From the NCBI GenBank assembly GCA_945888515.1, contig CAMDAD010000026.1, forward strand, positions 1 through 42,507: DNA of 42,507 bases, read 5' to 3'. Source of the DNA: Akkermansia muciniphila (GTDB lineage: Bacteria; Verrucomicrobiota; Verrucomicrobiia; Verrucomicrobiales; Akkermansiaceae). A program made the translations under genes and the position numbers. Each line of letters opens with the position of its first letter. The first letter of the stretch is position 1. Shown piece by piece: positions 935 to 42,359 of this stretch. Below the pieces are notes generated by a model, which worked only from the letters and a program-made list of their open reading frames with translations, made no database searches and had not been told where the DNA came from.

Positions 935-985
935 TTTCTTATGGCTGGGCGGGGCGAGGAGCAAGGGACGGCTCCTCTCCCGCCA
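935..985 (+). repeat. 51-bp hairpin repeat, copy 1
   Basis: Bases 935-985 are identical to 1091-1141. The element contains an inverted repeat: GGCGGG (948-953) and GAGGAGC (956-962) pair with GCTCCTC (971-977) and CCCGCC (979-984), with an 8-base loop and a small 2/1 internal bulge. In the rsmH reading frame it encodes the peptide FLMAGRGEEQGTAPLPP. The two copies are 156 bases apart, a multiple of three, so both are in the same frame. This resembles short palindromic elements that spread between and into genes. Its abundance elsewhere in the genome cannot be judged from this window. Confidence 0.9.
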
Positions 986-991
986 ATTTTT
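948..991 (+). terminator. Possible terminator or attenuator in the mraZ-rsmH gap
   Basis: The 13-bp GC-rich stem of repeat copy 1 (948-984) is followed directly by AATTTTTCC, with five T at 987-991. This is the shape of an intrinsic terminator reading on the plus strand. Copy 2 of the same hairpin has no T-run. If active, it would reduce read-through from the mraZ promoter into rsmH and the rest of the cluster. No clear second promoter is seen between 992 and the start of rsmH. Confidence 0.4.
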
Positions 992-1039
992 CCTGCCCTG
1001 ACGCCTGCCCGCGCCTGGGCCATGGCTGGGGCAACTGCA

Positions 1040-2071
1040 ATGTCTGACTCGGCGCGTGATCAGCGCGCAGATCATCGTAAGCCCACGACTTTTCTTATGG
1101 CTGGGCGGGGCGAGGAGCAAGGGACGGCTCCTCTCCCGCCATATCATCTTCCCGTATTGCCTGCCGAGGTCGAGCGATGGATGGACGCGAAATCAGGCGA
1201 TGTGATCATCGATGGCACCTTGGGCGGTGGTGGTCATACTTCCCTGTTTTTGCAAAAAGGTGCGCGCGTACTTGGCATCGATCGCGATCCTGAAGCCCTA
1301 GCTTATGCTGGGAAACGATTGGCCGCATATCGTGACGCACTTTCGACGTTTCAGGCGAACTACTCGCAAATGTCCGAGCATCCTAACCTGCCCGAATCTG
1401 GGCAGGTACAGGGTATTTTGTTAGATCTTGGTGTTTCCTCGCATCAGCTTGATTGTGCCGAGCGGGGCTTTTCGTTTCAGAAAGATGGACCGCTCGATAT
1501 GCGCATGGGGCCGAACGCGGAAATGACTGCTGCGGACTTTGTCAACGCTGCCAGCGAGGCGGAAATGGTGCAGGTGTTGCGTGAGTTCGGTGAGGAACCT
1601 CAGGCACGACGCATCGCGCATTTGATCACCGAGCGCCGCCGCAAAACACCATTCACCCGCACGGGAGATCTCGCTTCGTGCATCGAGTCCGCTCTCGGCA
1701 GGCATGGCCGCACCCATCCCGCCACCCGCACATTTCAGGCGATCCGCATGCGCATCAACGAGGAGCTCTCGCTCTTGCACGATGCGCTCGAAGCCGCCGT
1801 GCGATGTCTCGCTCCCGGTGGTCGTCTGCTGGTGATCACCTTCCATAGTTTGGAAGACCGGATGGTGAAACAGTTTTTGCAACATCGTGCCAAGCCCTAC
1901 ATCGATGACCCTACTTGGCCGGCGCCGCGCGATAACCCCGAGTATCATCTCACCCTGCCGGTGCGAAAATCCATCAGCGCAGGATCAGCCGAACTAACCT
2001 CGAACCCCCGGGCCCGTAGCGCGAAGTTACGGGTCGCAGTGCGTAATCACCGTAAACTCGAAACACCATGA
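1040..2071 (+). CDS. rsmH: 16S rRNA m4C1402 methyltransferase RsmH (MraW)
   Basis: Cytosolic SAM-dependent methyltransferase acting on C1402 of 16S rRNA, the usual second gene of dcw clusters. Conserved features are YHLPVLPAEV at the start of the domain, the SAM-binding IDGTLGGGGHT, LLDLGVSSHQLD, GPLDMRM, and near the C-terminus FHSLEDRMVKQF and NPRARSAKLRV. The conserved part (from 1142) is 309 residues, normal for the family. The start is uncertain. ATG 1040 is chosen because it gives a short tail, interrupted by the 17-codon repeat element. ATG 902 has the best ribosome site (GGAG, 5 bases upstream) and would add 46 residues including repeat copy 1; ATG 1097 lies inside copy 2. The stop overlaps the next ATG (ATGA). 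Confidence 0.93.
   Translation: MSDSARDQRADHRKPTTFLMAGRGEEQGTAPLPPYHLPVLPAEVERWMDAKSGDVIIDGTLGGGGHTSLFLQKGARVLGIDRDPEALAYAGKRLAAYRDALSTFQANYSQMSEHPNLPESGQVQGILLDLGVSSHQLDCAERGFSFQKDGPLDMRMGPNAEMTAADFVNAASEAEMVQVLREFGEEPQARRIAHLITERRRKTPFTRTGDLASCIESALGRHGRTHPATRTFQAIRMRINEELSLLHDALEAAVRCLAPGGRLLVITFHSLEDRMVKQFLQHRAKPYIDDPTWPAPRDNPEYHLTLPVRKSISAGSAELTSNPRARSAKLRVAVRNHRKLETP
1091..1141 (+). repeat. 51-bp hairpin repeat, copy 2, inside the rsmH N-terminus
   Basis: Perfect second copy of 935-985 (stem halves at 1104-1118 and 1127-1140). It is exactly 17 codons long. Removing it would join MSDSARDQRADHRKPTT directly to YHLPVLPAEV, a normal RsmH beginning, so it looks like an in-frame insertion into the disordered N-terminus. 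The short string ATGGCTGGG, which opens the coding part of each copy, also occurs at 1022 in the same frame, which may be a decayed third copy. Confidence 0.85.
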
Positions 2072-2409
2072 ACCAGACCCGTTCCACAAACCGATCGAAT
2101 CCTTTTTTCTGGATAAGCTTTTTCATCGCCGTGGCAATCATGACTATCGGTGCCGTTACCTACGTAACCTATCGGAATTTGCAAATCCAGACAGCCCGAG
2201 AGATCGAGGCCACGGAAAAACGCATCGCTTCGCTGGTGCAGGATGACATTCCCAGCATCGAGGCGGAGATTGATCGCCAGCTCGCGCGTTATGATTTGCG
2301 CGAAAAATTGCAGCGCAACGGCAGCGACTTGATTTCCACGCCTACGAATCGCATCGAAGTGGTCCGGCCTCCGCATCCCGCCGTCTCGCAGCATGTCCTG
2401 CGTCCCTAA
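2068..2409 (+). CDS. FtsL-like small bitopic division protein
   Basis: 113 residues with one membrane helix at about residues 12-33, followed by a charged heptad-like stretch (about 38-80) likely to form a coiled coil, then a short Pro-rich tail. Size, topology and position between rsmH and ftsI match FtsL, which bridges FtsQ/FtsB to the FtsW-FtsI synthase at the septum. FtsL sequences are poorly conserved, so the call rests mainly on architecture and context. It overlaps rsmH by four bases (ATGA) and ends 3 bases before ftsI, implying translational coupling. Confidence 0.7.
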   Translation: MNQTRSTNRSNPFFWISFFIAVAIMTIGAVTYVTYRNLQIQTAREIEATEKRIASLVQDDIPSIEAEIDRQLARYDLREKLQRNGSDLISTPTNRIEVVRPPHPAVSQHVLRP

Positions 2410-2412
2410 CAG

Positions 2413-4329
2413 ATGATTCGCTCCTTTCATAGCCGTTGCACGTTACTGTTCCTGCTCATCATCGCAGGGTTCAGTGCGCTGGCTCTGCGCTTGATGGACA
2501 TCCAATACTTCAATCGCAAATGCTATCAGGAAGCCGCGAAAAATTTCAATACGACGAAAACTTACTTGCCCGGTGGACGTGGGCACATTCTTGATTGCAA
2601 TGACGAATTGATCGCTCGCAGTGTCACCTTGGCCAAGTTACGCGTGGATCGTTACGCCCTGAATAATCCCGAACTTGCGGCCTTTGCCATCGCATGGGAT
2701 GAACTCAGCGTGGAGCCCGGTTGGGCCAATCTAACTGATCAGGCGAAGCGACACAAGCTCCGGCCGCTCGTGAAAAAAATCCTTCGCACGGAAGAGGAAG
2801 ATTTCCTCATTCAGAAGCATCTCGCCTATGCCATCGGTCACCTCGCTCCCGCACTGCGATTAAAGCGCGAAGAACTGCGCGCGCGCATCGAAAAAAATCC
2901 CAAGAGCATGTGGTTCGTCATCGAGCGCAACATGGAGGAGGAAATCTTTGATCGCGTGCAAAGCGTAATCGATGACCACAAGATCCAAGGATTCAGCATT
3001 GAGAAATCGGCTCGTCGCCGCTATGCCTCCCCCGAGTTGGCCAGCCACGTGGTCGGCTACACCATCATCAAGGAGATTACCCAAGGCAATTACAGCTACG
3101 ACAAGGAAGTGGGTGCCTTTGGTGTGGAAAAAGCCCTAGAGCCGATTCTGGCAGGGAAAGACGGCCACCGCACTAGCGTCACCAATGCACGCGGCTTGCT
3201 CATCACTCCGGAACCCAGTGTGACGCTGCCGCCCCGCTCGGGCATGAATGTGCAGCTCACTCTGGACATGGAAATTCAGAATATCATCCAGGAGGAACTG
3301 ATCGCTGGCATCCGTGAGCACGAAGCGCCGCGCGGTTGCGTGATCGTGATGGACCCTCACACGGGCGGCATTCTTGGCATGGCGAATTATCCCTCATTCC
3401 ACCTGAACACGCTCGATCAGATTGCGACGAATGGCATCAATTTTGCCACGCAAATGGTCTATGAACCAGGCTCTACTTTCAAGGCAATCGCTGCTGCGGG
3501 AGCTTTGAATGAAAAACTGATCACGCCGAACACTCCTATCTATTGCCACAACGGCTTCTACAAACAAGGCACATTGGAACTGAAGGATCATCACCCTTAT
3601 GGATCGCTCTCGGCTGAATGGGTAGTCGGAAAATCAAGCAACATTGGCATTTACAAAATCGCCTCGCAGCTTGGCATGCAGCGGTTTTATGATTACGTGC
3701 GCGCCTTTGGTTTCGGTGCAAAAACCGATGTTCCGCTCAGTGGTGAGGTCAAAGGCTATTTTCGGGAAACGGACAACCCGACCACTTTCTCCAGCATGAC
3801 CTTCGGCTACGCGGTCAACGTCACGCCCTTGCAAGTGGCTTGTGCCTATTCGGCGATTGCCAATGGCGGCAAGCTGCTCAAACCACAATTGCTGCAAGCG
3901 GTGATCGCCAACGATGGAACTCCGATCGATCGGATGGAACCGGAAGTGGTGCGGCAGGTCATCAGTGCGGATGCCGCGTCGAAACTTCGCCAGTGCATGA
4001 CGTCTGTCGTCACCAAGGAGGGAACCGCTTTTCAGGCAGCCGTTCCCGGCTATCAGGTGGCGGGGAAGACGGGTACGGCGCAAAAATACAACGTCGAAAC
4101 CAAAAAATATTTCAAAACCCGCTACACAGTGTCTTTTGCTGGCATGCTGCCCGCGAAGGATCCCGCTTTTGTTTGCGTGGTGGTCATCGATGACCCACAA
4201 ACCACCAAGGTCTCGCGCTATGGAGGCACGATTGCTGGGCCTATTTTTGCGAAAGCGGCCGAGCGCATTGCGCGGCATATGCACCTCACGCCTACCGAGC
4301 CGATTCCTACTTCCGTTGCTAATCAATGA
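2413..4329 (+). CDS. ftsI: Peptidoglycan transpeptidase FtsI (PBP3-type)
   Basis: Class B penicillin-binding protein of 638 residues, the septal D,D-transpeptidase. It has an N-terminal cytoplasmic stub, a membrane helix at about residues 9-28, a dimerisation domain beginning around GRGHILDCNDELIA, and a transpeptidase domain with all three active-site motifs: STFK (Ser354, Lys357), SSN (408-410) and KTG (552-554). There are no PASTA repeats at the C-terminus, as in Gram-negative FtsI rather than sporulation-type SpoVD. It follows the FtsL-like gene and overlaps murE by four bases (ATGA). FtsW, its partner glycosyltransferase, ends the same cluster. Confidence 0.95.
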   Translation: MIRSFHSRCTLLFLLIIAGFSALALRLMDIQYFNRKCYQEAAKNFNTTKTYLPGGRGHILDCNDELIARSVTLAKLRVDRYALNNPELAAFAIAWDELSVEPGWANLTDQAKRHKLRPLVKKILRTEEEDFLIQKHLAYAIGHLAPALRLKREELRARIEKNPKSMWFVIERNMEEEIFDRVQSVIDDHKIQGFSIEKSARRRYASPELASHVVGYTIIKEITQGNYSYDKEVGAFGVEKALEPILAGKDGHRTSVTNARGLLITPEPSVTLPPRSGMNVQLTLDMEIQNIIQEELIAGIREHEAPRGCVIVMDPHTGGILGMANYPSFHLNTLDQIATNGINFATQMVYEPGSTFKAIAAAGALNEKLITPNTPIYCHNGFYKQGTLELKDHHPYGSLSAEWVVGKSSNIGIYKIASQLGMQRFYDYVRAFGFGAKTDVPLSGEVKGYFRETDNPTTFSSMTFGYAVNVTPLQVACAYSAIANGGKLLKPQLLQAVIANDGTPIDRMEPEVVRQVISADAASKLRQCMTSVVTKEGTAFQAAVPGYQVAGKTGTAQKYNVETKKYFKTRYTVSFAGMLPAKDPAFVCVVVIDDPQTTKVSRYGGTIAGPIFAKAAERIARHMHLTPTEPIPTSVANQ

Positions 4330-5873
4330 AACTTTCCGATCTGATCTCTCTCTTCCTTCGCCCTGTGGTCTCCGGCCCCACGGATCAATCTATTGCCGCG
4401 GTTACGGATGACTCGCGTCAGGCGAAAGAGGGCGTTGTGTTTGTGGCATTGAAAGGCGCTAATGCCGATGGCAATGACTACGCGATGAAGGCTCTCGCCG
4501 CAGGCGCGGCAGCTGTGGTTTCCGAAAAAGCACCACCCGCTGATCTCGGCAACGTGATGACGTGGATCCATGTGTCCGATGCCCGCCACGCACTCGCCCA
4601 ATGCGCCGTAGCTCTTGCCGGAAATCCAGCAGCGGGAATGAAACTCTGCGGTGTCACCGGTACGAATGGCAAGACCACCACTGCGTTTCTCATGCACTAC
4701 TTGATGAAGCAGATCTGGCACCGCGCCGGTATGCTCGGCACGGTGCGTATCGATGACGGGGAAACGGTGGAGGCGGCATCCAGCACCACACCCGGATCGA
4801 TCGAACTGCAAGGCATTCTGCGCCGTATGGCAGATCACGCATGTCGTGGCGTGGCGATGGAAGTTTCCTCGCACGGCATCCATCAGCACCGCGTCACTGG
4901 CATTCCCTTTGATGCATGTATTTTTACTAACCTCACGCAGGATCATCTCGATTACCATGGCACCATGGAACATTATTTCGCTGCGAAAAAAGCGTGGTTC
5001 GATGCCGTGGCAGCAAATCCGTTAGGGAAAAAACCAGTTGCCATCATTAATCTCGATGACCCTTACGGCGCGGAGCTTGCAGACTCGCTCAGAGGCAAAC
5101 TTCCCGTATGGACCTTCGGCTTCGGCGTGCACTGCGACTACCGCATGAACAACATGAGGCAAACGGCGCGCGGCATGGAGTTCGAGCTGAATCACAAAGG
5201 TCGACAGTTCCTAGTGCGCGCGCCATTGATCGGACGCTTCAACGCTTACAACATCGCCGGTGTGCTTGCAGCTGCGGCGGCGTGCGACATTCCCCTGCGC
5301 GATTCCGTGCCGCTCATGGCCCACGCGACTCAAGTGCCAGGACGCATGGAAAATGTCGGCAATGCCGGCGGCGCGACGGTGTTTGTCGATTATGCACACA
5401 CGCCCGATGCGCTGGAAAATGCCTGCCGCACGCTCCGCGAATTGGAGCCAGGGCGCTTGCTTACCATATTCGGCTGCGGCGGTGATCGCGACAAACGCAA
5501 GCGCCCGCTCATGGGCGAGGTCGCCGCCCGACTCAGCGATTTTTGCGTCGTCACCTCCGACAATCCACGCAGTGAAAATCCCGAAACCATCATCCGCGAG
5601 ATTGTCTCTGGCATCGGCGGCACGCATCACGTCACGATTGTTGATCGAGCCAAAGCGATCCACGACACCATTGCCGCCACGCGTGCGGGAGACATCGTGC
5701 TCATCGCTGGCAAAGGCCACGAGACTTACCAGCAATTCGCTGATCGCACCATCGACTTTGACGATAAAAAAGAAGCCACCATTGCCCTTCGCGATCGCGT
5801 GGTAGCCGCCGCAAAATTTCGCGAGTCGTTGCCGCCGCGCAAAACGCACAAGCCCCGTCGCAAAGATCCCTAA
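4326..5873 (+). CDS. murE: UDP-MurNAc-tripeptide synthetase MurE (meso-DAP type)
   Basis: 515-residue Mur ligase that adds the third amino acid to UDP-MurNAc-dipeptide in the cytoplasm. The ATP-binding loop is GVTGTNGKTTT, with Lys116. YAHTPDALENA marks the C-terminal part of the MurE family. DNPR at residues 412-415 is the motif that selects meso-diaminopimelate over lysine, so the wall is probably of the DAP type expected in diderm bacteria. The C-terminus ends in a basic tail (RKTHKPRRKDP) of unknown use. The start overlaps ftsI (ATGA) and murF begins 3 bases after the stop. Confidence 0.95.
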   Translation: MKLSDLISLFLRPVVSGPTDQSIAAVTDDSRQAKEGVVFVALKGANADGNDYAMKALAAGAAAVVSEKAPPADLGNVMTWIHVSDARHALAQCAVALAGNPAAGMKLCGVTGTNGKTTTAFLMHYLMKQIWHRAGMLGTVRIDDGETVEAASSTTPGSIELQGILRRMADHACRGVAMEVSSHGIHQHRVTGIPFDACIFTNLTQDHLDYHGTMEHYFAAKKAWFDAVAANPLGKKPVAIINLDDPYGAELADSLRGKLPVWTFGFGVHCDYRMNNMRQTARGMEFELNHKGRQFLVRAPLIGRFNAYNIAGVLAAAAACDIPLRDSVPLMAHATQVPGRMENVGNAGGATVFVDYAHTPDALENACRTLRELEPGRLLTIFGCGGDRDKRKRPLMGEVAARLSDFCVVTSDNPRSENPETIIREIVSGIGGTHHVTIVDRAKAIHDTIAATRAGDIVLIAGKGHETYQQFADRTIDFDDKKEATIALRDRVVAAAKFRESLPPRKTHKPRRKDP

Positions 5874-5876
5874 GCC

Positions 5877-7235
5877 ATGAAAGCGCTCACCGCACAAGAA
5901 CTTACGGCCCTCATCGGCGCGACATTGGTCGCTGGTGACGCGGCCGCTTGGGCGAATGCGGGCGTTTGCACGGATACGCGCAAATTGGTGGCAGGTTGTG
6001 TGTTCTTTGCGCTTAAGGGAGAAAATTTCGATGCTAACGCTTTCGCCGCACAAGCCCTGCAACAGGGTGCTGCCATCGTCGTGGTCTCTCAGTGGTCGGG
6101 CGCGATGATCCACGGCGGTGCCGTATTGTTAGTCGATGACACCCTCTTGGCACTGCAACAGCTGGCTGCTTGGTGGCGCGCGCAGCTCGATTTGCACGTG
6201 ATCGGGCTGACGGGATCTAACGGAAAAACTAGCACCAAGGATTTCACCGCCGCGGTTCTTTCGCAGAAATTTTCCACCTGTGCCACGCGTGGAAACCTGA
6301 ACAATCACATCGGGCTGCCGCTCACGGTGCTGGAAACGCGGGAGTCGCATCAGGCTGCCGTCTATGAAATGGGCATGAATCATGCAGGCGAAATCGCTCC
6401 ACTCGCCGCCATCGCGAAGCCGCAAATTTGCATCATTACTAACATCGGCTCCAGTCACATCGAGTTTCTCGGCACGCGTGAAAACATCGCGCGGGAAAAA
6501 GCCTCCATCGCGGCAAGGCTCACGGAACACGAGACGCTCATCGTGCCTCACGATTGCGACTTTTTGCCCTTGATCCGCAGCCTCACGAGCGCACGCTTCA
6601 TGAGCACCGGCGGTGAAAATGATGTCGTGCGCGCTGCGGATGTGCGCGAGGAGGCAGGGCGCATGAAATTTTTGTTAGTCTGCGGCAAGAACTCGGCGAA
6701 AGTTGATCTTCCCGTTTCTGGACGGCACATGGTGGCAAACGCCTTGCTTGCCGCGGCGGCAGGATACTTGTGCGGGCTTTCCGTTGATCAAATCGCGCGC
6801 GGGCTCGGTCAAGCCAGCTTGACCGCGGGACGCCTTCGCCGTTTTGTCAGTCGCGGTATCATTGTTTTTGACGATACCTACAATGCGAATCCTGAGTCGA
6901 TGATTGCGGGCCTGGAAACATTGGCGCGCGAGTCAGCGAGCGGCAAGCGCTATGCCGTGCTCGGTCGCATGGGCGAGCTCGGTGAACATGCGGTGGAAGG
7001 TGGACAGCGCGTCGGCGAGTGTGCGGCGCGTCTGGCGCTCCACACGTTGACCGTGGGGCAGGATGCCGATCTCATCTCGCGGCATGCGGGACCCACAGCG
7101 CGGCATTTCGCCACACAAGAAGAAGCGGCGGCCTTCCTCAGCGAGCATTTGCATGCGGGCGATGTGGTCTTTTTCAAAGGAAGTCGCACCGCTGCCATGG
7201 AGCGGGTGATGAAACAAATTTTCCCTGACGACTGA
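5877..7235 (+). CDS. murF: UDP-MurNAc-pentapeptide synthetase MurF
   Basis: 452-residue Mur ligase that joins D-Ala-D-Ala to UDP-MurNAc-tripeptide, the last cytoplasmic step before MraY. Visible motifs are the P-loop GLTGSNGKTSTK (Lys117), the region around GMNHAGEI and ITNIGSSHIEFL, and VFDDTYNANPESM, which is diagnostic for MurF. Length is normal. It lies directly after murE, and its TGA overlaps the mraY ATG by one base (TGATG), so the two are probably translationally coupled. Confidence 0.95.
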   Translation: MKALTAQELTALIGATLVAGDAAAWANAGVCTDTRKLVAGCVFFALKGENFDANAFAAQALQQGAAIVVVSQWSGAMIHGGAVLLVDDTLLALQQLAAWWRAQLDLHVIGLTGSNGKTSTKDFTAAVLSQKFSTCATRGNLNNHIGLPLTVLETRESHQAAVYEMGMNHAGEIAPLAAIAKPQICIITNIGSSHIEFLGTRENIAREKASIAARLTEHETLIVPHDCDFLPLIRSLTSARFMSTGGENDVVRAADVREEAGRMKFLLVCGKNSAKVDLPVSGRHMVANALLAAAAGYLCGLSVDQIARGLGQASLTAGRLRRFVSRGIIVFDDTYNANPESMIAGLETLARESASGKRYAVLGRMGELGEHAVEGGQRVGECAARLALHTLTVGQDADLISRHAGPTARHFATQEEAAAFLSEHLHAGDVVFFKGSRTAAMERVMKQIFPDD

Positions 7236-8428
7236 TGTTATACTGGATCTATCAATTCTGGAAAGAAGCCTTCACTGCGGAAAACGCGAGTGGTGTGGAA
7301 GGCTGGGCGCATGCCTGCGACGCGCTGAATTTGTTCCGCTACATCACCTTCCGCGCGGCCGTGGCTTGCTTACTGGCATTCGGTATCAGCTTGATGATCG
7401 GACCACGCGTGATCCGGAAATTGATCTCGATGAAACTCGGTCAACCGATCCGCACGGCGGCGGAGGTGCACAAACTGGCGGAACTGCACGGTGGAAAAAT
7501 CGGCACGCCTACGATGGGCGGCGTGATGATTCTCGGCTCGGTGCTACTCGCGACACTGCTTTGCGCCAATCCGCTCAACCCTTTCGTCGCGGTCTGTGCA
7601 TGCACCATGGGCGCCTGTGGCTTGTTAGGCTTTTGTGATGACTATAAGAAGGTGAAGGAGAAAAAATCTGATGGCCTCAGCAGTCGACAGAAACTCTTCT
7701 GGCAGATGATCATCGCCGTGATCGCCGCATGTTTCATGTATTTCAAAAAAGAAATTTCTGGCTTCGGCGACGCGACGCATGGATTCCAGTTAGGCAAGGA
7801 AATGATGAGCATCGATGCCATTTGTTTCCCGCTTTTCAAAACGCCGCTGATTCATCTCGGCTGGTTGATCATTCCGTTTTTCGCACTGATCATCATCGGC
7901 TGCTCGAATGCCGTGAATCTAACAGATGGTCTGGACGGTCTCGCTACGGGCTGCACCATCACCACGGCGCTGGCTTACTCGATGCTAGCGTATTTGGCGG
8001 GGCACTTTTTCCTCGCCACCGATTATTTAGTGATTCCGCACAATCAATACATCGGCGAGTTGGCGGTGTTTCTCATGGCGATGGTCGGCGCGGGGTTGGG
8101 CTTTCTGTGGTTCAACTGCCACCCAGCGAAAGTCTTCATGGGTGACACTGGATCGCTGGCCATCGGTGGTGCGCTCGGTTCCGCGGCGATCGCAACCAAG
8201 CAGGAGTTGTTGCTGGTCATCATCGGTGGTGTTTTTGTGATGGAAGCGATGTCCGTTATCCTGCAGGTGGCGAGTTTCAAGACGAGAAAAAAACGCATCT
8301 TCCGCATGTCGCCGATCCACCATCATTTCGAGCTAGGCGGTTGGCATGAGAGCCAGGTGATCATCCGCTTCTGGCTGCTCTCACTGATGCTCGCTTTGTT
8401 TGGTTTAGCCCTTTTGAAAATCCGATGA
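7235..8428 (+). CDS. mraY: Phospho-MurNAc-pentapeptide transferase MraY
   Basis: Polytopic inner-membrane enzyme of 397 residues that transfers phospho-MurNAc-pentapeptide to undecaprenyl phosphate, making lipid I. Key signatures are DDYKKVKEKKSDGLS (the Asp pair), NAVNLTDGLDGLATG, GFLWFNCHPAKVFMGDTG with the catalytic Asp, and SPIHHHFELGGWHE with the His triplet. About ten hydrophobic segments can be counted. The N-terminus (MLYWIYQFWKEAF) is slightly extended, as is common outside Proteobacteria. It overlaps murF by one base and murD by four (ATGA). Confidence 0.96.
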   Translation: MLYWIYQFWKEAFTAENASGVEGWAHACDALNLFRYITFRAAVACLLAFGISLMIGPRVIRKLISMKLGQPIRTAAEVHKLAELHGGKIGTPTMGGVMILGSVLLATLLCANPLNPFVAVCACTMGACGLLGFCDDYKKVKEKKSDGLSSRQKLFWQMIIAVIAACFMYFKKEISGFGDATHGFQLGKEMMSIDAICFPLFKTPLIHLGWLIIPFFALIIIGCSNAVNLTDGLDGLATGCTITTALAYSMLAYLAGHFFLATDYLVIPHNQYIGELAVFLMAMVGAGLGFLWFNCHPAKVFMGDTGSLAIGGALGSAAIATKQELLLVIIGGVFVMEAMSVILQVASFKTRKKRIFRMSPIHHHFELGGWHESQVIIRFWLLSLMLALFGLALLKIR

Positions 8429-9726
8429 CACTAACAGGAAAATCAGTAGCCATACTAGGCGCGGGACGCAGCGGTCGCGCCGCCGCCGCCTTGGCTCTGC
8501 GTGAAGGCGCGGTAGTGACAGTTTATGATGAGGCGGAAACGATCACAGGATTTTCTGATGACGTGACGACTCACCCTTGTGCGTCTGCAGAAATCGGTGC
8601 GACTGTGCGCTGTGATCTTCTGATTGTCAGTCCGGGGATCGATACCTACGGTCCCTTGGTGCAGGCCTTTTCGCAACAGGCCGGCAAGGTGGTGGGAGAG
8701 ATGGAATTCGCGTGGAATTATTTCCGAGGATTCACGATTGCCATTACGGGGACGAACGGGAAAACGACGACCACCGAAATCATCAGTCGTATTTTTCAAG
8801 TCAATGGGATCTCCTGCGTGCCCTGTGGCAATTATGGCAAACCACTCGCCGAGGTAGTGATGGAGGAGCCTATGCCGGAAGTCATTTCGTTAGAATCGAG
8901 TTCGTTTCAGTTGGAGACGATCGATCGATTCAAACCTCACGTCGCGGTGTGGCTGAACTTCGCACCGGATCACATGGATCGCTATCCTACTGTCGAAAGC
9001 TATCATCACGCGAAACTCCGCATTTTTGAAAATCAGGATGCGGATTCTGTTGCGGTGGTGCGGCGAGGCGAAAATTTGCCGACTCTATGCGGAAAGGTCG
9101 TGACCTTTTCCACCGAGAGCGAGGAGAGCGAATGGACATCGAATGGCATCACCATCGAGCACGCGGGGCGAACCGTATTGCACGTCGAGAACGATACCTG
9201 CCTGCGCGGATTGCATAATGCGGAGAACATCATGGCAGCTATGGCCGCCTGCTCGGAATTCGGTCGCACGCTCGATTGGAAGGCCGCCTTTGTGGGCTAT
9301 GTGCCTCCACCGCATCGTTGCGAGCTAGTGCGCACGCTCGATGGCGTCGAGTATCTCAACGATTCGAAAGCCACGAACCTGCATGCGCTAGAGAGCGCCC
9401 TCCGTTCCCAAACACGCCCCGTTGTATTGATTGCGGGTGGCAAGGAAAAAGGTCTCGACTACTCTCCCGTCGTGCCACTGCTTCAGCAAAAAGCCATCGC
9501 TGCGGTGACCTTCGGTCAAATCGCCGCGTCTCTGGGCGAGGTCTTGGAAAAAGGTGTGCCCACTCGCGTCGTTGCGTCGCTGGACGAAGCCATCGTGACC
9601 GCCCGCTCGCTCGCGCCGCGTGGCGCTACGATTCTTTTTTCTCCCGGCACATCTTCCTTTGATCAGTTCCGCGGTTACGAACACCGCGGTGATACCTTCC
9701 GTCAACTTGTCCAACAACTCCACTAA
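8425..9726 (+). CDS. murD: UDP-MurNAc-L-Ala:D-Glu ligase MurD
   Basis: 433-residue Mur ligase that adds D-glutamate to UDP-MurNAc-L-Ala. The N-terminal Rossmann part carries VAILGAGRSGRAAA, the central domain the P-loop ITGTNGKTTTTE (Lys113), followed by SSSFQLE and NFAPDHMDRY; the C-terminal domain carries YLNDSKATN and LFSPGTSSFDQFRGYEHRG, both typical of MurD. Overlap with mraY is ATGA. A 12-base gap separates it from the LysM gene, the largest gap between rsmH and ftsW. Confidence 0.96.
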   Translation: MTLTGKSVAILGAGRSGRAAAALALREGAVVTVYDEAETITGFSDDVTTHPCASAEIGATVRCDLLIVSPGIDTYGPLVQAFSQQAGKVVGEMEFAWNYFRGFTIAITGTNGKTTTTEIISRIFQVNGISCVPCGNYGKPLAEVVMEEPMPEVISLESSSFQLETIDRFKPHVAVWLNFAPDHMDRYPTVESYHHAKLRIFENQDADSVAVVRRGENLPTLCGKVVTFSTESEESEWTSNGITIEHAGRTVLHVENDTCLRGLHNAENIMAAMAACSEFGRTLDWKAAFVGYVPPPHRCELVRTLDGVEYLNDSKATNLHALESALRSQTRPVVLIAGGKEKGLDYSPVVPLLQQKAIAAVTFGQIAASLGEVLEKGVPTRVVASLDEAIVTARSLAPRGATILFSPGTSSFDQFRGYEHRGDTFRQLVQQLH

Positions 9727-9738
9727 TTACACTCAACT

Positions 9739-10548
9739 ATGAAACCTCGAGAATTACCCGTGAAACGCCAACCTTTGAAAAGGGGCTTATTCCGCACCTT
9801 GTATGCGAAGATCAAGAGGCCCGCTGCGACTGCCGCGGCGAATCCTGCGGATTTGGATGGCGATATTCCGCGCATGAATGTCGGTCGCGTTTTGATCGTG
9901 ATTGCCTTAGTCCACGTCATTGGCATCGCTGGTTTTTTTGCGCAGCGCTATTTTGAATATAGCAATCTGAAGCAGGATCCGGGTGGGCCGACTCCTTCGC
10001 AGAAGCCACTGGCAGCTGCGGCGGCGGTGAGCACGGATCGCCCGAATTTCGGTTCCACGGCATTGGCTAGCATGACCGATTTGCCTCAGATCCAGCGTGG
10101 CGATGACAGGCACATGGTGCTGGCGGGCGATACCTATCTCTCGATCGCGCGCAAATGGAACATCAGCGAGCAGTCGCTCCGCGCGGCGAACAATGATGTG
10201 AATCTTTGTTCGGGACTGGTGCTGCGTGTGCCGCCGCGCGAGATTGTGGCCTTGGAACCCGAGGAAATGCAGCGACTCCGCCATGGGGGAAAACCCACGG
10301 GGCCCTCTCCGCGCGCGATTCTTGTGCGCCCGAATTTTGATCTGGAATCGGCACCGCGTGCCACGCCAGTGATCGAGGAAAAGGGTGCAACTGGCAACAC
10401 CTACAAGGTGCGCAAAGGTGACACATTCTATCAGATTGCCCGCGCGCACAAAATTTCTGTCGACCTCCTCATGAGCAGCAATGGCATCAAAAATGACAAA
10501 TCATTGAAAATCGGTCAGGTTCTCCGAATCCCCACGCAACAATATTGA
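9739..10548 (+). CDS. Membrane-anchored LysM-repeat protein inside the dcw cluster
   Basis: 269 residues: a basic cytoplasmic N-terminus of about 53 residues, one membrane helix (about residues 54-72), then a periplasmic region with two LysM modules. The first covers about residues 117-160 (GDTYLSIARKWNISEQSL), the second about 223-268 (YKVRKGDTFYQIARAHKIS). LysM modules bind the GlcNAc-MurNAc backbone of peptidoglycan. No catalytic domain is present, so a scaffold or sensor role in wall synthesis or division is likely, but this is inference. Its TGA overlaps the ATG of ftsW (TGATG), so the two are translationally coupled, which suggests work with the FtsW-FtsI synthase. Confidence 0.88.
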   Translation: MKPRELPVKRQPLKRGLFRTLYAKIKRPAATAAANPADLDGDIPRMNVGRVLIVIALVHVIGIAGFFAQRYFEYSNLKQDPGGPTPSQKPLAAAAAVSTDRPNFGSTALASMTDLPQIQRGDDRHMVLAGDTYLSIARKWNISEQSLRAANNDVNLCSGLVLRVPPREIVALEPEEMQRLRHGGKPTGPSPRAILVRPNFDLESAPRATPVIEEKGATGNTYKVRKGDTFYQIARAHKISVDLLMSSNGIKNDKSLKIGQVLRIPTQQY

Positions 10549-11699
10549 TGGCACGACTCGCAGCCAATTTGATCCTCATATCCGTTGGGCTACTGGTGGC
10601 CCTGGGGATGATCATGCTGGCGAGCACGAGTTACTGGGCCAATGGCATGGAGCAACCGCATATGTTGGTTAGCAAGCAGGCCAAGATTCTCCTGATGGCC
10701 TTGGTCACCGGATTCTGCGTCTATCTGATCAAGCCAGAATTATTGCGTAAAATAACATTATGGGTCTTTATCGGAGGAGTCGTATTATTAGTATTATGTT
10801 ATATACCGCCATTTGGGGTTGAAGTGAATGGGGCAAAGCGCTGGGTGAAATTTCCCGGCGTGCCGCAGTTCCAGGCATCGGAAATCGGTAAAATCACCAC
10901 GTTGCTCGGTCTTGCGGCTTGGTATGCCCGCTACAATCCAGAGGTGCGCACTTTTTTTAAGGGCTTTGCCTTTCCTGGCCTGGTCGCGGGTGTGCCGGTG
11001 TTGCTCATTTTGTGTGAGAAGGATGTGGATACGGCATTCGCGCTGGGACTGGCCTGCGCCGCTTTGTTTTTTTGTGTGGGCGTGAGAGCATGGTATCTGT
11101 TTCCGGTTCTTGGTCTGGCGGGATTCCTCGGCTACCAATTGGTGATGAATGATGAGACGCGCCGAGCGCGGATCGATGCGTGGATGCATCTCGAAGAAAA
11201 TCTCAAGGAATACCAGGATACCAATCGTCAGCAATGGCGTTCATTGCTGGCTTTCGGCAACGGTGGACCAGAGGGTGTCGGTCTCGGCAATGGCGTGGAA
11301 AAACACGGGTATCTTCCCGAAGCACACACGGATTTCATTTTTCCCGTCATCGGTGAGGAATGCGGCTTGTATTGCACGCTGGGCGTTGTGCTTTGTTATG
11401 TGACTCTCGGTATTGGTGGATTTCTTGTGGCGATGAATGCAACGGATGTGTTTGGTCGAGCTCTCTCGATCGGAGTGACTATGATGTTATTGCTCCCCGC
11501 CTTAATCAACATAAGCGTCACTGTTGGGAAATTTCCTAACGCCGGACTACCTCTGCCCTTTGTGAGCTACGGTGGCACAAACTTGATGTTTTCCCTTTGG
11601 TCAGTGGCTTTGTTACTCTGCGTCAATCGTGCGACTCAACTTCGAGCACGACGTGAATTCGATGCCTGCATCCCCACACCGACATCGATGAAATTGTAG
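10548..11699 (+). CDS. ftsW: Septal peptidoglycan glycosyltransferase FtsW (SEDS)
   Basis: 383-residue SEDS-family polytopic membrane protein that polymerises lipid II at the septum with FtsI. Motifs include NGAKRWVKFPGVPQFQASEI (family NGARRW...QPSE), EAHTDFIFPVIGEE, and PNAGLPLPFVSYGGTNL. ATG 10548 is preferred over the TTG one codon earlier because it overlaps the preceding stop as TGATG, matching other junctions in the cluster. Bases 10740-10805 encode a membrane helix with unusually AT-rich codons (five TTA, two ATA, two GTA). The gene is the last of the cluster and converges with an RfbD-like gene 4 bases away. RodA is an alternative, but position favours FtsW. Confidence 0.92.
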   Translation: MARLAANLILISVGLLVALGMIMLASTSYWANGMEQPHMLVSKQAKILLMALVTGFCVYLIKPELLRKITLWVFIGGVVLLVLCYIPPFGVEVNGAKRWVKFPGVPQFQASEIGKITTLLGLAAWYARYNPEVRTFFKGFAFPGLVAGVPVLLILCEKDVDTAFALGLACAALFFCVGVRAWYLFPVLGLAGFLGYQLVMNDETRRARIDAWMHLEENLKEYQDTNRQQWRSLLAFGNGGPEGVGLGNGVEKHGYLPEAHTDFIFPVIGEECGLYCTLGVVLCYVTLGIGGFLVAMNATDVFGRALSIGVTMMLLLPALINISVTVGKFPNAGLPLPFVSYGGTNLMFSLWSVALLLCVNRATQLRARREFDACIPTPTSMKL

Positions 11700-37245: not shown

Positions 37246-38625
37246 TTAGAAATCGAGGTAGATTTCAGTACGGCGGTTGGCGCGGCGGCCTTCGGGATCG
37301 TCTTCGCCGGACGCTTTGACATTGGGACGTCGTGGTTCGGTTAGGCCCTTGGCTGCGGTGACGATTTGGTGTGTATTCACTCCAGCGCTGATCAGATACT
37401 CCTTAACGGCATTCGCGCGTTCTTGTGAGAGGCCTTGATTGTAGTCTGCTGAACCGAGGGCATCGGTGTGGCCAGAGAGATGGATTTTTTTTCTGGTGTC
37501 TGTCTTGAGAATCATCGCGACGATGGCCAACTGCCGCTCGGTGCGTCGGGTGAGGCGTTCTTCATCAAATTCGAAATACAGCACCAGTGTATCTCCGCCG
37601 GCGGGGTTCTTGATCAGTGGTGTGTAGTAAACGTCACCGCCAGCGAAGCGCTGGGCGTAGTCACTGAGAAGTTGATCGAGATTTAATTCGTCGATGATCC
37701 AGTTTGGATTATTGGCATTTTTTTTCAGGATGATGGCAAACTGTGCCGCCTGAGTTCCATCGGCAGCTTGAACGTTTGCGAGGAAAGAAGCGATGTTGTC
37801 TTTTTGCAAAATGGCGCGCAGTGGTTTTTCGGGACGCAGTCGGTAGTTGCCTTCCTCGAATAAAATGCAGAGTCCGACCAAGGTGGCATCGGACACTTTT
37901 TCCGTATTCACAAATTCCTTTGCTAGAGTGAAATTCTGACTGAGCACGGCAAGCAGGAACGAGTCCGTGATCCCCAGTGAGTCTACCATCATCGCGCGAG
38001 GGATAGGCTCACCATCGGCGGGTGGCAGGGTGATTTTGTCTACTTCCCAGAGCAGTCCGTTTTTGACGAGATCAAAATAAATGCGATCGCGTCCGGGTTC
38101 GCGATCCGCCAGTTCGAGGGCGTAACGTGCTCTCTTATTCAGTTCTAGCTCACCCACCTGCCTTACGGGATTCGGAGCCCTGAGTTTCAGAGTGGTGCTT
38201 AATTGTTTTAGTTGTTCGCGCGTTTCTGGATCCATCGCCCGCGCTCCGATGAGCTTCTCGGCTGTGGCGAAGTCCTGATTGGCGAGAGCATTGCCGATGG
38301 AGGTGATCAGATCAATTGGATCCTCTTTTCCAGGTTGCTGTGGCACCGAGCCAGTGGTTTTCAAATTTTCCTCGGCCTCTTGCAGTGCCGTGAGTGGAGT
38401 AACGGGTGGCGTCTGCGGATTCACTTGCAGCACCGGTGGTTTTTCCCATTGCGATGAGAGAGGGATTAGGGTTCGACGCTTGTTTTTCTCCAACAAGATG
38501 AGAGTCACGGTCATCGCGACGAGCACGAGCAACAGGAAAAAAATCAGTGGAGCTTTGGATTTTGATGCCGATGGTCGTATCGGATAGCCCTCAAGATCTG
38601 GCGGTGGAATGGTGATATCCTTCAT
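37246..38625 (-). CDS. Membrane-anchored OmpA/MotB-domain protein, kinase neighbour
   Basis: 459 residues. A short cytoplasmic N-terminus (1-25), a membrane helix (about 26-45), a Pro-rich linker, two similar alpha+beta modules (about 105-200 and 215-330, each ending in a WxVD/WxID strand) and a C-terminal OmpA-like peptidoglycan-binding domain (about 345-459; HLSGHTDALGSADYNQGLSQ, then ERANAV). Asp388 and the Arg of QERA bind DAP in this family, in line with the MurE type. It follows the Ser/Thr kinase gene by 12 bases, so they are one operon. The two repeats may be an internal duplication of NTF2-like or related folds; not certain. Confidence 0.82.
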   Translation of the reverse strand: MKDITIPPPDLEGYPIRPSASKSKAPLIFFLLLVLVAMTVTLILLEKNKRRTLIPLSSQWEKPPVLQVNPQTPPVTPLTALQEAEENLKTTGSVPQQPGKEDPIDLITSIGNALANQDFATAEKLIGARAMDPETREQLKQLSTTLKLRAPNPVRQVGELELNKRARYALELADREPGRDRIYFDLVKNGLLWEVDKITLPPADGEPIPRAMMVDSLGITDSFLLAVLSQNFTLAKEFVNTEKVSDATLVGLCILFEEGNYRLRPEKPLRAILQKDNIASFLANVQAADGTQAAQFAIILKKNANNPNWIIDELNLDQLLSDYAQRFAGGDVYYTPLIKNPAGGDTLVLYFEFDEERLTRRTERQLAIVAMILKTDTRKKIHLSGHTDALGSADYNQGLSQERANAVKEYLISAGVNTHQIVTAAKGLTEPRRPNVKASGEDDPEGRRANRRTEIYLDF

Positions 38626-38637
38626 CGGAGTAAGCGG

Positions 38638-41310
38638 TTATTCTCCTAGCATCGATTTTACCCACGAATCCAGTTCGTTGGCCTCATCGAAGTAAACTTT
38701 TAATTGGCGAGCTAAGTCTTGTTGTCCCGATTTCTGAGCGCTGGCACCCATTTCCCTGAGTCTGAGTAAATAGGAATCGCGGATTTTTTCGTTACGCATT
38801 TGATAGGCCGTCTCGGCATCGGTTTGTTTTGTCAGTGAATACGTATGAATTTTCACAATACTTGGATGCATAACTGGAATGGCATCGCCTCCGCTTGCAT
38901 CTCTCTCACGAAATCCTACGCGCTGGATTTCGGCCACTTCCTCGGCCGATGGAATGCGGCCTTGGTTTGTGATTCTTTTGAGAAGATCGACTGGCATCTG
39001 CCACTGCATTTTTTCTACGGGCTTCAGGCCGCGCAACCATACATCGAGGTCCCAGTTGAATGATTTGACATTCGCTGCGAGCTTGTCGTTGCGCTCTTTG
39101 GCAGAGCTGGCGAGAAGAGTGCGACATTTGGTAACAAGAGCGGCAATGTCGGTAGTTGTCCCGCTCATGTTTACTGGTCCGGAAGCTGTGGCATCTGGAT
39201 CTTTGCTCCACTCAAGCAATACTCCATCGGCTTGGTCTTCTTTGTTTACGTTGTGCCAGCCTTTCTTCGGCAAATAGACTAGGAGCGTTGCGGTCTCATT
39301 TTCGTCGGGAGACTCCGCTGCCCACTGTGCATAGGTCCATGGTTCTTTGGTGGACCATTCCCAGACGCCGCCCACTTTTTCGCCGCCAATCCAAATGCCG
39401 CGATCAGCGTTGAGCGAGCTAAGATGATCCGTGACCCAGTAACCTTCTTCCTTATTGCTAAGAGCCGCCACATGCGCGCCTGCCTGTTGTGCCAACTCGT
39501 AGGCTTCCACGCGATTCATGGGGCGCAGGATGGGCAGGTAGTAACGAGCTCCCGCGGCTTCGGTGCCGGGAGGGAAAAGCGGCGTATGAGTGTCTAACGA
39601 TTTACGAGTGGCTTGCAGCAAATTCGCCAACGAGGAGGGATTTGAGCCATCGCGATGCCATGCCATGACGAAAGGGAAGGCCCGCGCCGCTTCACTGGCT
39701 CTCACGTTTCCGAGGTGAGACAAGGTCGCATAGTTTCCGATGCCGGGAGGAGTTTTTTCCATGGACCAAAGCGAGCCATCGAGAAGGATCCATTGATCAC
39801 CGCCGCTCCGACCTGCTCCGAGCCAGATCGTTTCGTTGTTTTTCAGCAGCGATGCCAAAAATGTCAACTCGTCTGCATTCGTGGGCAGGGCTATGTGAGC
39901 GCCATATTTTTCCGCGAACAGCAGCGCCGCGTCCCATGACATCGGCTCAGGCACGAGGAAAAAATCCATTTCTCCGCGCCGTTTTGAGCCCACCGGCATC
40001 TCGTCGCGCGCACCCTTGGATAAGTCGTATTGCAAGCGCTCCAGAGACTCCATAGCCGTCTCCTTCTTTTCCTCGACTGGTGCCACAGGAGGCGTGATGG
40101 GTGTGACGGGCGTGATCGTTTCCGGTTCGGGCAAGGGCGGTGTCTTAATGCGCGCCATCTCTTCTTCGGCTTCGCGACGACGGCGCATGGCTTCTTCCTT
40201 TTGCTTGTTGTTGTAGGCTTGCTCCCGCGCGGCTACTTCTTTTTTGTGAATCTGTAATTTTTGGTAAACAAACACGAGCACCACAGCAAGAGCGGCGATG
40301 ATGAGTAAATTCCGCACGTAGCTCCAACTGGCATTTCCCGAGGAAACGACGAGGGCGGGCAAGGGTAATTCATCGGCATCCTCTTCTTCTCTGGCAGGTG
40401 TGGCGGGGGTCTTCGCCGCTACGGGCGTCTTTACGACCGCTGCGGGTCGGGCCATCGGCTGCGGGCGGGCTGCGGCAACGGCTGCGGGGCGTGCGACTTT
40501 TTTGTCGGCGGAGCTGCCCGGCTTGATCGCCTCACGAATGGCATTCGCCATCGCGGTGGCGTCTGGGTAGCGCATCACCGGATTGGGATGCGTGGCCCGT
40601 TGGATGAGGGCATCAAACTCTTTTCCGCACTTGCACAATGATGATGGCAGGATGTGAGGTGCGGGTTTCTGACCCGTGAGCAATTCATGCAAAATGACGC
40701 CGACAGCAAAAAGATCCGCGCGACGATCCGCTTTTTCCGGCCGCGAGATCACCTCGGGCGCTGCGTAGCCGGGCGTGCCCATGGCAATGCCATCGTTTTT
40801 GATGCCCGTTGCTTGCGCGAGGCCGAAGTCGCCGATTTTTGGTTCAATCTTGGGAGTGAGTAAAATGTTCGCCGGCTTGATGTCGCGGTGGATGATGCCG
40901 TTTTCGTGAGCGTGGCTGAGACCTTCGCAAATGGCGATGACAATGCGACTCGCCTCTGCGGGATCGATTTTTTTATTCCAAGATGAGTGATAGAGCGACT
41001 TCCCGGGCACATACTCCATCGCGATGTAGAGCATCCCATCGACGTCGCCGGAGTCATAAATGCCGATGAGGTTCGGGTGATTCAGCCGAGCCATGGCGCG
41101 GGCCTCGGTCTGGAAGGAGGCGCGGAATTCCGGATCGGCACTGAGCTCACGGGGAAGAATTTTCACGGCCACCTCACGATCCAGCGATACTTGCTTGGCG
41201 AGATAGACTGCCCCCATTCCACCCTGAGCGATAAAATTGATAAAATGGTAAGCTGGTAACAACTTGTTCAGCGTCTCGATCGCAGGGGGTGTAAAAGCTG
41301 GTGATTCCAC
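38638..41310 (-). CDS. Transmembrane Ser/Thr protein kinase with two C-type-lectin-like domains
   Basis: 890 residues. The cytoplasmic Hanks-type kinase (about 21-262) has GGMGAVY (30-36), Lys50 (VAVKIL), HRDIKPANIL (141-150) and DFG (161-163), so it should be active. A Pro/Ala linker leads to a membrane helix (334-350), a charged coiled coil (352-388) and a Pro-rich stretch. Outside lie two lectin-like domains: a degenerate one (about 448-550; SWDAALLFAEKYGAHIALPT, WLGAG) and a clear one (about 589-702; GIWIGGEKVGGVWEWS, AQWAAESPDENE, GWHNVN). A helical tail ends the protein. The start is GTG 41310, with TATAAA at 41328-41323 a few bases upstream. The external ligand is unknown. Confidence 0.88.
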   Translation of the reverse strand: MESPAFTPPAIETLNKLLPAYHFINFIAQGGMGAVYLAKQVSLDREVAVKILPRELSADPEFRASFQTEARAMARLNHPNLIGIYDSGDVDGMLYIAMEYVPGKSLYHSSWNKKIDPAEASRIVIAICEGLSHAHENGIIHRDIKPANILLTPKIEPKIGDFGLAQATGIKNDGIAMGTPGYAAPEVISRPEKADRRADLFAVGVILHELLTGQKPAPHILPSSLCKCGKEFDALIQRATHPNPVMRYPDATAMANAIREAIKPGSSADKKVARPAAVAAARPQPMARPAAVVKTPVAAKTPATPAREEEDADELPLPALVVSSGNASWSYVRNLLIIAALAVVLVFVYQKLQIHKKEVAAREQAYNNKQKEEAMRRRREAEEEMARIKTPPLPEPETITPVTPITPPVAPVEEKKETAMESLERLQYDLSKGARDEMPVGSKRRGEMDFFLVPEPMSWDAALLFAEKYGAHIALPTNADELTFLASLLKNNETIWLGAGRSGGDQWILLDGSLWSMEKTPPGIGNYATLSHLGNVRASEAARAFPFVMAWHRDGSNPSSLANLLQATRKSLDTHTPLFPPGTEAAGARYYLPILRPMNRVEAYELAQQAGAHVAALSNKEEGYWVTDHLSSLNADRGIWIGGEKVGGVWEWSTKEPWTYAQWAAESPDENETATLLVYLPKKGWHNVNKEDQADGVLLEWSKDPDATASGPVNMSGTTTDIAALVTKCRTLLASSAKERNDKLAANVKSFNWDLDVWLRGLKPVEKMQWQMPVDLLKRITNQGRIPSAEEVAEIQRVGFRERDASGGDAIPVMHPSIVKIHTYSLTKQTDAETAYQMRNEKIRDSYLLRLREMGASAQKSGQQDLARQLKVYFDEANELDSWVKSMLGE

Positions 41311-41480
41311 AGGAATGATTGTTTTATACAGTGATTTGTTAGCACGAGTCTTTCCAGAAATCCAGAAAAATCAAGCAGATCTGAAAAAAAGTGATCGCAG
41401 GCAAAATCGATTGGCAAGGCTGCGGGAGCTTGCTAGCGTCGCGTGTGAACGAGCCGTATCTGCGATCTGATCTAACTGCC

Positions 41481-42359
41481 ATGGCGCTGCTGCTCGGCTG
41501 TATTTCGATGGCATGCCTGGTGCTGCTCGCAGGAGTATTGTTGAAACAAAGACAGCGTCTGATGCAGCCGCTGCTCCGCGATGACCAAGGTGTTTTGCTG
41601 CCCATGCCCCCGCCACTTCCCTCGTGGGGAAGAGTGCAAACGTGGTGGTGCCATGTCGTTGACATTCTCGGCTTGCTGCTCATCGGTGGCATTTTTGTTT
41701 TTTTTGGTGTGGCGACTGTGAGCGCCGCGGGACAAGAAACGGAAAAAGTCCTGAGCACATCGACTCTGTGGGCTAATATTCTAACCTTTGCCTCACTCGT
41801 TGCGGTAGTGTTTCTCATCGTCCATCGCCGCGTAACGCCTGTCACTTGGCTGGGCCTGCGCTGGCAGCGGTGGACGCATTTTTTCTGGATCGGCCCCGCG
41901 GTGGTCGTGGTGATGTGGGTCGTGATGATCATGCTCATGCAATCGGGCTATATCGCGTGGTTGGAAAAAGTCGTGGGCACTAGCAGCACTCAGGATGCCG
42001 TGGCATTGCTGCGGGAGAGCGAGGATACGATGAGTCTAACGCTGATGGCGTTTTCTGCCGTGTTTGTGGCGCCGCTCGCGGAAGAGGTGATCTTCCGTGG
42101 GTATCTCTATCCGGTGGCAAAATCGTTCGCAGGTCCCAACGCTGCGATTTTCTTCAGCGCTTTGCTTTTTGCCGCCTGTCACGGCAATATACCGCTGATG
42201 CTACCGCTGTTTTTGTTAGGGATTCTGTTGGCTCTGGCGTATGAATGGACGGGGTCACTCTGGGCGTCCATCAGCATCCATTTTTTCTTCAACGGAGCGA
42301 CCGTGGCGACGCAACTCGCCGCGCGCGCGGGACTTTTTCCGGAGATTCCCTCGTCATGA
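41481..42359 (+). CDS. CPBP-family intramembrane metalloprotease
   Basis: 292 residues from ATG 41481; a GTG at 41391 would add 30 residues without membrane character. About eight membrane helices. The CPBP (Rce1/Abi) motifs are all present: EEVIFRGYLYP (Glu-Glu and Arg), FAACHGN (FxxxH) and HFFFN (HxxxN). Bacterial members process membrane proteins or confer peptide/bacteriocin immunity; the role here is unknown. It is divergent from the kinase gene, and its stop overlaps thiL (ATGA). Confidence 0.85.
   Translation: MALLLGCISMACLVLLAGVLLKQRQRLMQPLLRDDQGVLLPMPPPLPSWGRVQTWWCHVVDILGLLLIGGIFVFFGVATVSAAGQETEKVLSTSTLWANILTFASLVAVVFLIVHRRVTPVTWLGLRWQRWTHFFWIGPAVVVVMWVVMIMLMQSGYIAWLEKVVGTSSTQDAVALLRESEDTMSLTLMAFSAVFVAPLAEEVIFRGYLYPVAKSFAGPNAAIFFSALLFAACHGNIPLMLPLFLLGILLALAYEWTGSLWASISIHFFFNGATVATQLAARAGLFPEIPSS

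Follow-up and report, generated by a model that had tools for sequence, protein, structure and literature searches.

PASTA kinases (PknB, PrkC, StkP) consist of a Hanks-type Ser/Thr kinase, one membrane segment and a C-terminal sensor part, and dimerisation activates them. For many other Hanks kinases of bacteria, to our knowledge, neither the sensor domain nor the ligand is known. In plants, C-type lectin receptor kinases carry a C-type-lectin-like domain (CTLD) outside, a membrane segment, and a Ser/Thr kinase inside. Here we analyze a gene on the minus strand (38638..41310) of a 42,507-nucleotide stretch of Akkermansia muciniphila DNA (contig CAMDAD010000026.1), hereafter called the window, whose predicted product joins a Hanks-type kinase and a membrane segment to two CTLDs. 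An earlier note, drawn from the sequence alone, had proposed that this kinase may sense a glycan or another ligand with lectin-like folds, a different receptor design.

The window protein shares the overall layout of the PASTA kinases, and the solved kinases closest to its kinase domain in sequence are StkP and PknB; its sensor part, however, is made of two CTLDs and a helical tail. No PASTA match was obtained in the protein with Pfam up to an E-value of 1, and the NCBIfam PASTA-kinase model scored 253.9 bits against a cut-off of 450, which together rule out a PASTA kinase identity. Relative to the plant receptors, in which the lectin domain comes first, the domain order is opposite and the origin probably separate. 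The claim of a different design is sound when set against the PASTA kinases. The window protein does not stand alone, however, as kinase-CTLD fusions recur in its phylum, Verrucomicrobiota, and fusions to FGE-sulfatase domains are present in the same genome.

A review (PMC6213207) names PASTA and beta-propeller sensors, and the word "lectin" is absent from the portion of its text available to us. A literature search that did not extend to bioRxiv preprints or to the greater part of the subscription journals found no description of Lectin_C-bearing kinases in Verrucomicrobiota. The accessible part of PMC7517822 ties cyanobacterial Ser/Thr kinase-CLec proteins (CLec, C-type lectin fold) to diversity-generating retroelements and gives cyanobacterial variable proteins as mostly predicted to be cytosolic. 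On that account the kinase-CLec proteins, like the window protein, have an N-terminal Ser/Thr kinase and a C-terminal C-type-lectin-fold domain, but they are mostly predicted to be cytosolic and are partly diversified by reverse transcriptase, whereas the window protein has a membrane segment and conserved CTLDs. The RVT_1 domain gave no match at E≤0.001 in the protein's own genome (97.5% complete), and the candidate of a retroelement-diversified protein was rejected on this ground. The low ratios of nonsynonymous to synonymous substitution (dN/dS) of CTLD1 and CTLD2 (0.047 and 0.039, window versus related locus L013; L, G, g and f label loci, genomes, genera and families) likewise speak against a hypervariable lectin-fold region; no search for template or variable repeats was made.

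FGE-sulfatase domains are described in the accessible part of PMC10907252 as a subtype of CLec folds. In the window's own genome, four kinases exceeded the Pkinase (PF00069) cut-off and one further match was weak; only the window's kinase coincides with Lectin_C (PF00059). L114 and the weakly matching L115 combine a kinase or kinase-like domain with FGE-sulfatase domains (PF03781), L114 also carrying PEGA. They resemble the window protein in the kinase or kinase-like domain, in a hydrophobic segment recognized by eye and, following that partial source, in the wider C-type-lectin fold; they differ in Pfam family, PF03781 versus PF00059. FGE-sulfatase itself gave no Pfam match in the window protein, the matches there being to Lectin_C. 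Elsewhere in this genome, L017 (C7) is part of a 1,859-residue frame with a Lectin_C match, in which EPN, WND and FGE-like ends were noted by eye.

Architecture and predicted fold of the window protein

Sequence analysis confirmed a predicted product composed of an N-terminal Hanks-type Ser/Thr kinase, one hydrophobic segment, a stalk, two CTLDs and a helical tail:

38638..41310, minus strand: whole gene, 890 codons, GTG start, TAA stop counted in the span
40525..41253, minus strand: Hanks-type Ser/Thr kinase domain, residues 20-262, with GGMGAV 30-35, VAVK 47-50 (K50), HRD 141-143, DFG 161-163 and APE 184-186 (Pfam PF00069, E 6.5e-47)
40315..40524, minus strand: juxtamembrane Ala/Pro/Lys-rich linker, residues 263-332, poorly conserved in the alignment (dN/dS 0.26 over 263-325)
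40258..40314, minus strand: single membrane segment, residues 333-351 (hydropathy 2.28)
40006..40257, minus strand: stalk, residues 352-435, charged and helix-like, then Pro-rich (dN/dS 0.23 over 353-435)
39646..40005, minus strand: CTLD1, residues 436-555, without Ca2+ site and without Cys (Lectin_C over cut-off; fold Z 16.1)
39637..39657, minus strand: HRDGSNP, residues 552-558, a motif at the CTLD1 end (all 10 aligned sequences, the window's among them, share RDGSNP)
39196..39579, minus strand: CTLD2, residues 578-705, with WIGG, GGVWEWS, PDENE and GWHN, without Cys (Lectin_C; fold Z up to 15.7)
38641..39150, minus strand: helical C-terminal region, residues 721-890 (about 170 residues, predicted helices)

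The earlier note had described an intact Hanks kinase, a single membrane helix and a second lectin-like domain with WIGG, GGVWEWS and PDENE signatures, all of which were recovered: K50, HRD and DFG are in place within a Pkinase match, only one segment is present, with its hydrophobic core at residues 335-349, and the signatures occupy residues 640-643, 647-653 and 668-672, PDENE not being kept in aligned relatives. The helical region at 721-890 is an addition to that description, and residues 352-400 of the stalk, read from the sequence only, are a charged stretch. The GTG start agrees with the starts of aligned relatives. Pfam assigned Lectin_C over two stretches of the protein (E 6e-13), and a six-frame scan placed these at 39244-39516 (32.4 bits) and 39769-39945 (25.6 bits), each alone over the curated cut-off.

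Residues 436-890 were modeled with AlphaFold2 from 10 sequences, those of the window and nine relatives (predicted local distance difference test score, pLDDT, 77; predicted template-modeling score, pTM, 0.53). CTLD1 (model residues 1-118) aligned with LLT1 (5mgt_A) at Z 16.1 and 2.1 Å over 116 residues, and its top structural matches are NK-type receptors or ligands (LLT1, CLEC5A, NKp80 and NKR-P1B). CTLD2 (model residues 147-270) aligned with DEC205 (7jpt_A) at Z 15.7 and 3.0 Å over 119 residues and with SRCL at Z 15.3 and 2.8 Å over 122 residues; mincle is also among its top matches. Domain-wise structure alignment gave good coverage only at model residues 1-120 and 141-269. The best Foldseek matches of the ectodomain model are the tandem-CTLD receptors Endo180, uPARAP, DEC205 and mannose receptor (E down to 3.6e-10), with poor whole-chain superposition (root-mean-square deviation ∼19 Å, TM-score ∼0.23). 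A profile of the ten ectodomains searched by sequence alone against solved structures matched 92 distinct CTLD sequences at E≤0.01, the best at 1.6e-20. Invariant positions among these ten include many Trp and Gly residues as well as RDGSNP at the end of CTLD1, and this motif is recognizable in many members of the wider set of relatives. Structure prediction thus bears out the two lectin-like domains of the earlier note: in a model of moderate confidence, both have the C-type-lectin fold.

Kinase-CTLD fusions in Verrucomicrobiota

Lectin_C was present in 66 of 387 genomes of the phylum. Among 44 Lectin_C open reading frames (ORFs) chosen for their length of about 580 to 1,730 residues, 32 matched a kinase profile built here (E≤1e-5). 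This proportion does not extend to Lectin_C proteins in general, as the sample left out shorter and longer frames, one 1,715-residue frame (G535) and members of the window's family that had been found before. Five of the 44 are cut by a stretch or contig end (three with a kinase, two without), and the ORF taken for L169 exceeds its listed frame and may be the wrong one. By hand tally, the 32 kinase-bearing ORFs derive from 23 genomes in 12 families; a hydrophobic stretch of at least 1.6 separates kinase and CTLD in 23 of them and is lacking in nine. As judged from these sequences, kinase-CTLD fusion is a recurrent design in the phylum. The other-family proteins share with the window protein the domain pair within one ORF and differ in their linkers and extra domains. 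In the family f4 kinases L050 and L054, Lectin_C is joined to C-terminal leucine-rich repeats. The kinase ORFs L137, L138, L154, L158, L160, L161, L164 and L166, which are about 1,040-1,190 residues long and come from genomes G433 and G419, end in a CTLD and have no evident membrane segment.

Closer to the window, a search for related loci returned 11, nine of which (L006-L014) match nearly the whole protein and two the kinase only. Of 288 genomes from the order, 99, belonging to 22 of 50 genera, had an ectodomain match at E≤0.001, many of the weaker matches covering CTLD2 or the tail only; those of at least 300 residues fell in family f1 and two f2 genomes, with none in genus g2 genomes among the matches listed. 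In a kinase-domain tree of 54 rows, 45 (44 distinct proteins from f1, f2 and named relatives) formed one clade with support of 99/97; outgroup branches were long and the placement of f4 is unsure. The tree omitted L052, L053, L058, L065, L067a and L068 of 22 BLAST-found ORFs and kept L066a, a repeat of L039. L034, which shares a contig with L014, was excluded from the tree, from the pseudokinase-motif comparison and from the Cys and Lys/Arg counts given below; L045, a locus without the kinase part, was excluded from the tree and from these counts, and L020-L024 were unused as duplicates of the window, L013, L012, L008 and L006. Six kinases in which no CTLD was seen fell in at least two places within the clade (support around one of these only 83-84), and BLAST found a tail like the window's in kinases without a CTLD match, which points to loss of the CTLDs two or more times with retention of a similar tail. 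Absence of a CTLD was called by Pfam for L055, L057 and L060 and by BLAST coverage only for L056, L059, L061 and L062.

The dN/dS values, that of the kinase being 0.066 in the comparison with L013 that gave the CTLD values above, indicate strong purifying selection on kinase and CTLDs, and the tail is under purifying selection as well. In a comparison of 15 active-type sequences, conservation was highest in the kinase (mean identity 65%), followed by the CTLDs (45%) and the tail (32%). The domain assignments, the folds and the purifying selection of the window protein are far beyond chance.

Five proteins of genus g4 (L031, L032, L033, L035 and L060), which form one branch of the tree with support of 100/99, depart from this pattern in their kinase motifs: HRD is changed to HG and DFG to NFG, and the glycine loop is lost, while the VAIK lysine is kept. 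Their genes retain open frames, and the dN/dS of the kinase-like domain in two pairs (0.12 and 0.26) lies below that of the CTLDs of the same pairs, these values being rough because synonymous sites are near saturation in places. The g4 proteins look like functional pseudokinase receptors.

Tentatively, and with a confidence that falls just short of even, we propose that a broad class of receptor kinases, so far undescribed, exists in Verrucomicrobiota and senses the outside through true C-type-lectin domains, as a bacterial counterpart to lectin receptor kinases. Some of its members would have full EPN/WND sugar sites, the window's branch would have two CTLDs in tandem that lack a canonical calcium site, and another branch would consist of CTLD-bearing pseudokinases kept by selection. 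The main interest of the finding lies in the breadth of the kinase-CTLD design and in the pseudokinase branch. Recurrence of the design across a large phylum, with natural variation in ligand-site residues and kinase motifs, makes ligand sensing testable by comparison, and the pseudokinase branch is a natural test of the role of the ectodomain without catalysis.

Ligand-site residues and genomic neighbours

The window protein probably senses some feature of the cell envelope. Ca2+-dependent sugar-binding C-type lectins carry EPN or QPD, E and WND residues; disulfides are typical of canonical domains, CTLDs without them exist, and the C-type-lectin fold alone does not imply sugar binding. The corresponding positions were read by alignment with L134, an other-family kinase in which EPN, E and WND are all present. 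In this alignment none of the canonical residues is present in CTLD1, and CTLD2 has SPD, E and WHN, the canonical residues being mostly replaced. Relatives vary at these positions, with SPE, ELD, YPT, YPK, AVS, ASA or APQ together with WHN, WRD, WHD, WDG or WMD; L040, L043, L047 and L048 have SPD or APD with WDD, and three family f4 kinases have EPS or EPG with WGD. No Cys was found in CTLD1 or CTLD2, so the conserved disulfides of the canonical domain are missing from both. Glycan sensing through a canonical Ca2+ site was accordingly rejected for CTLD1, where the site residues are absent, and is doubtful for CTLD2, where they are mostly replaced. L134 itself (L134:1573-3678, minus strand) encodes a 702-residue kinase with a membrane segment, a CTLD with Cys as well as the full site, and a tail that is repeat-like by eye; it is a candidate true lectin receptor kinase.

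Two genes flank the kinase gene:

37246..38625, minus strand: downstream neighbour, 12 bp off, with an N-terminal hydrophobic segment and a C-terminal OmpA-family domain (Pfam OmpA, 2.2e-19); candidate partner
41391..42359, plus strand: divergent neighbour, CPBP/Rce1-like membrane protein (Pfam, 5.1e-22), neighbour in several genera; context only

An OmpA-family gene lies directly downstream at all eight of the same-genus loci examined (window, L006, L007, L008, L012, L013, L122 and L123). In genus g10 all six loci (L116-L121) have the order OmpA-type gene, ORF of 267-283 residues, kinase, and the intervening ORF is an M23 peptidase in both of the loci scanned (L117:5414-6262 and L118:3550-4389). 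For these two genera the neighbours hint at a function in the cell wall, and no more. A predicted structure of the OmpA-type neighbour was poor (pLDDT 51) and was set aside. Farther off in the window, positions 641-11696 hold a division and cell-wall cluster (MraW-type methylase, PBP transpeptidase, Mur ligases, family 4 glycosyl transferase, LysM protein and FtsW/RodA-type protein).

The glycan sensing put forward in the earlier note is weakened by the residue comparison. On that view the CTLDs would recognize a sugar (peptidoglycan fragments or a polysaccharide, for example), and its binding would activate the kinase in the way that muropeptides activate PASTA kinases. The fold is real, some other-family kinase-CTLD proteins do carry Ca2+/sugar residues (EPN, E, WND and Cys in L134; EPN, E and W-M/I-D in L135 and L144), and the OmpA-type and M23 neighbours in two genera point to the cell wall. 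The fold is not in itself proof of sugar binding, however, and the window's own domains either have no site or have one whose residues are mostly replaced and vary among relatives. Textbook Ca2+-dependent sugar binding is not supported for the window protein, and we regard a glycan receptor as unlikely, at roughly one chance in four.

Orientation and signalling

The reading we favor, with slightly better than even confidence, is that of an envelope-sensing single-pass receptor kinase whose CTLDs recognize a ligand in the envelope, be it a protein or something else, such that binding or clustering alters kinase pairing and activity. The N-terminal kinase would be cytoplasmic, and all that follows the membrane segment (stalk, both CTLDs and helical tail) would be periplasmic, where the CTLDs and tail would bind an envelope protein or other component; in the window's genus this ligand may be the protein that the neighbouring OmpA-type gene encodes, or a component which that protein holds. 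Binding or clustering would then act via the stalk and membrane segment to alter the pairing of the kinase and its activity on cytoplasmic targets. By analogy with the PASTA kinases dimerisation would activate, and given the few Ser/Thr residues of the activation loop the switch may be allosteric. The kinase motifs, the hydrophobic segment, the predicted folds of both CTLDs, the purifying selection and an OmpA-type neighbour in two genera are observations; that the kinase is active, how the protein is oriented, which class of ligand it binds, that clustering activates it and that the OmpA-type protein is its partner are inferences.

Several observations weigh against one or another part of the model. 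The activation loop, as read from the alignment, has few Ser/Thr residues apart from the P+1 Thr, so control by autophosphorylation there is doubtful. No OmpA-type gene was present in the stretch examined at any of 12 other-genus loci (L009, L010, L011, L014 and L126-L133), and such a gene occurs in 69 of 78 genomes of the family, including g2 genomes without a listed ectodomain match; the partnership may therefore be accidental. The g4 branch has CTLDs without catalytic motifs, the ectodomain being kept in four of its five proteins and L060 having no Lectin_C match. Finally, Lys and Arg were counted in the 15 residues on either side of the membrane segment in 33 sequences, with charged residues trimmed off the core, and averaged 1.9 before it, toward the kinase, and 4.0 after it, toward the CTLDs, which by itself would make the CTLD side the inner one; the CTLD side had more in 29 of the 33 and the kinase side in two, with two ties, and a cruder count disfavored the kinase-inside orientation in 31 of 33.

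Net charge beside the segment is nearly equal (1.5 on the kinase side, 1.7 on the CTLD side). As a control, the same residues were counted in 19 OmpA-type neighbour proteins, whose C-terminal domain should face the wall; the values were 3.05 and 2.95, and eight proteins had the higher count outside, six had it inside and five were tied. Because the control is without bias, the positive-inside rule discriminates poorly here, and it was dropped as proof of topology. Cys makes up 0.31% of residues after the membrane segment and 0.79% before it (33 proteins), which weakly favors an outside location of the CTLD part. A cytoplasmic kinase and external CTLDs are the likely orientation because the kinase needs ATP, the Lys/Arg bias giving this no support.

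That bias would instead suit an anchored, non-spanning protein with both halves in the cytoplasm, in which the CTLDs choose kinase substrates or partners, one of several roles proposed for the cyanobacterial kinase-CLec proteins. Eight complete ORFs with a kinase and a C-terminal CTLD (G433, family f58; G419, family f57), in which the best hydropathy between the two domains is below 1.6, are in keeping with such an arrangement, as is the predicted cytosolic location of most cyanobacterial variable proteins in the accessible part of PMC7517822. The segment is nevertheless conserved, with a hydropathy of 1.9-2.6 in the relatives that hold this part (L045 is without it), and should insert, and the part that follows it is poor in Cys; we judge this arrangement improbable. 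That the ectodomain is mainly structural, serving tethering or adhesion with a kinase that is constitutive or of reduced importance, is more improbable still, for although the g4 branch keeps CTLDs in four of five members beside a kinase-like domain without HRD, DFG or glycine loop, the kinase is the most conserved part of the active-type proteins and has a low dN/dS against L013.

At their C-terminal ends L009, L010, L011 and L014 carry an additional domain of about 80 residues in the alignment, and the same end in L066 shows a weak likeness to DUF5640, below the cut-off.

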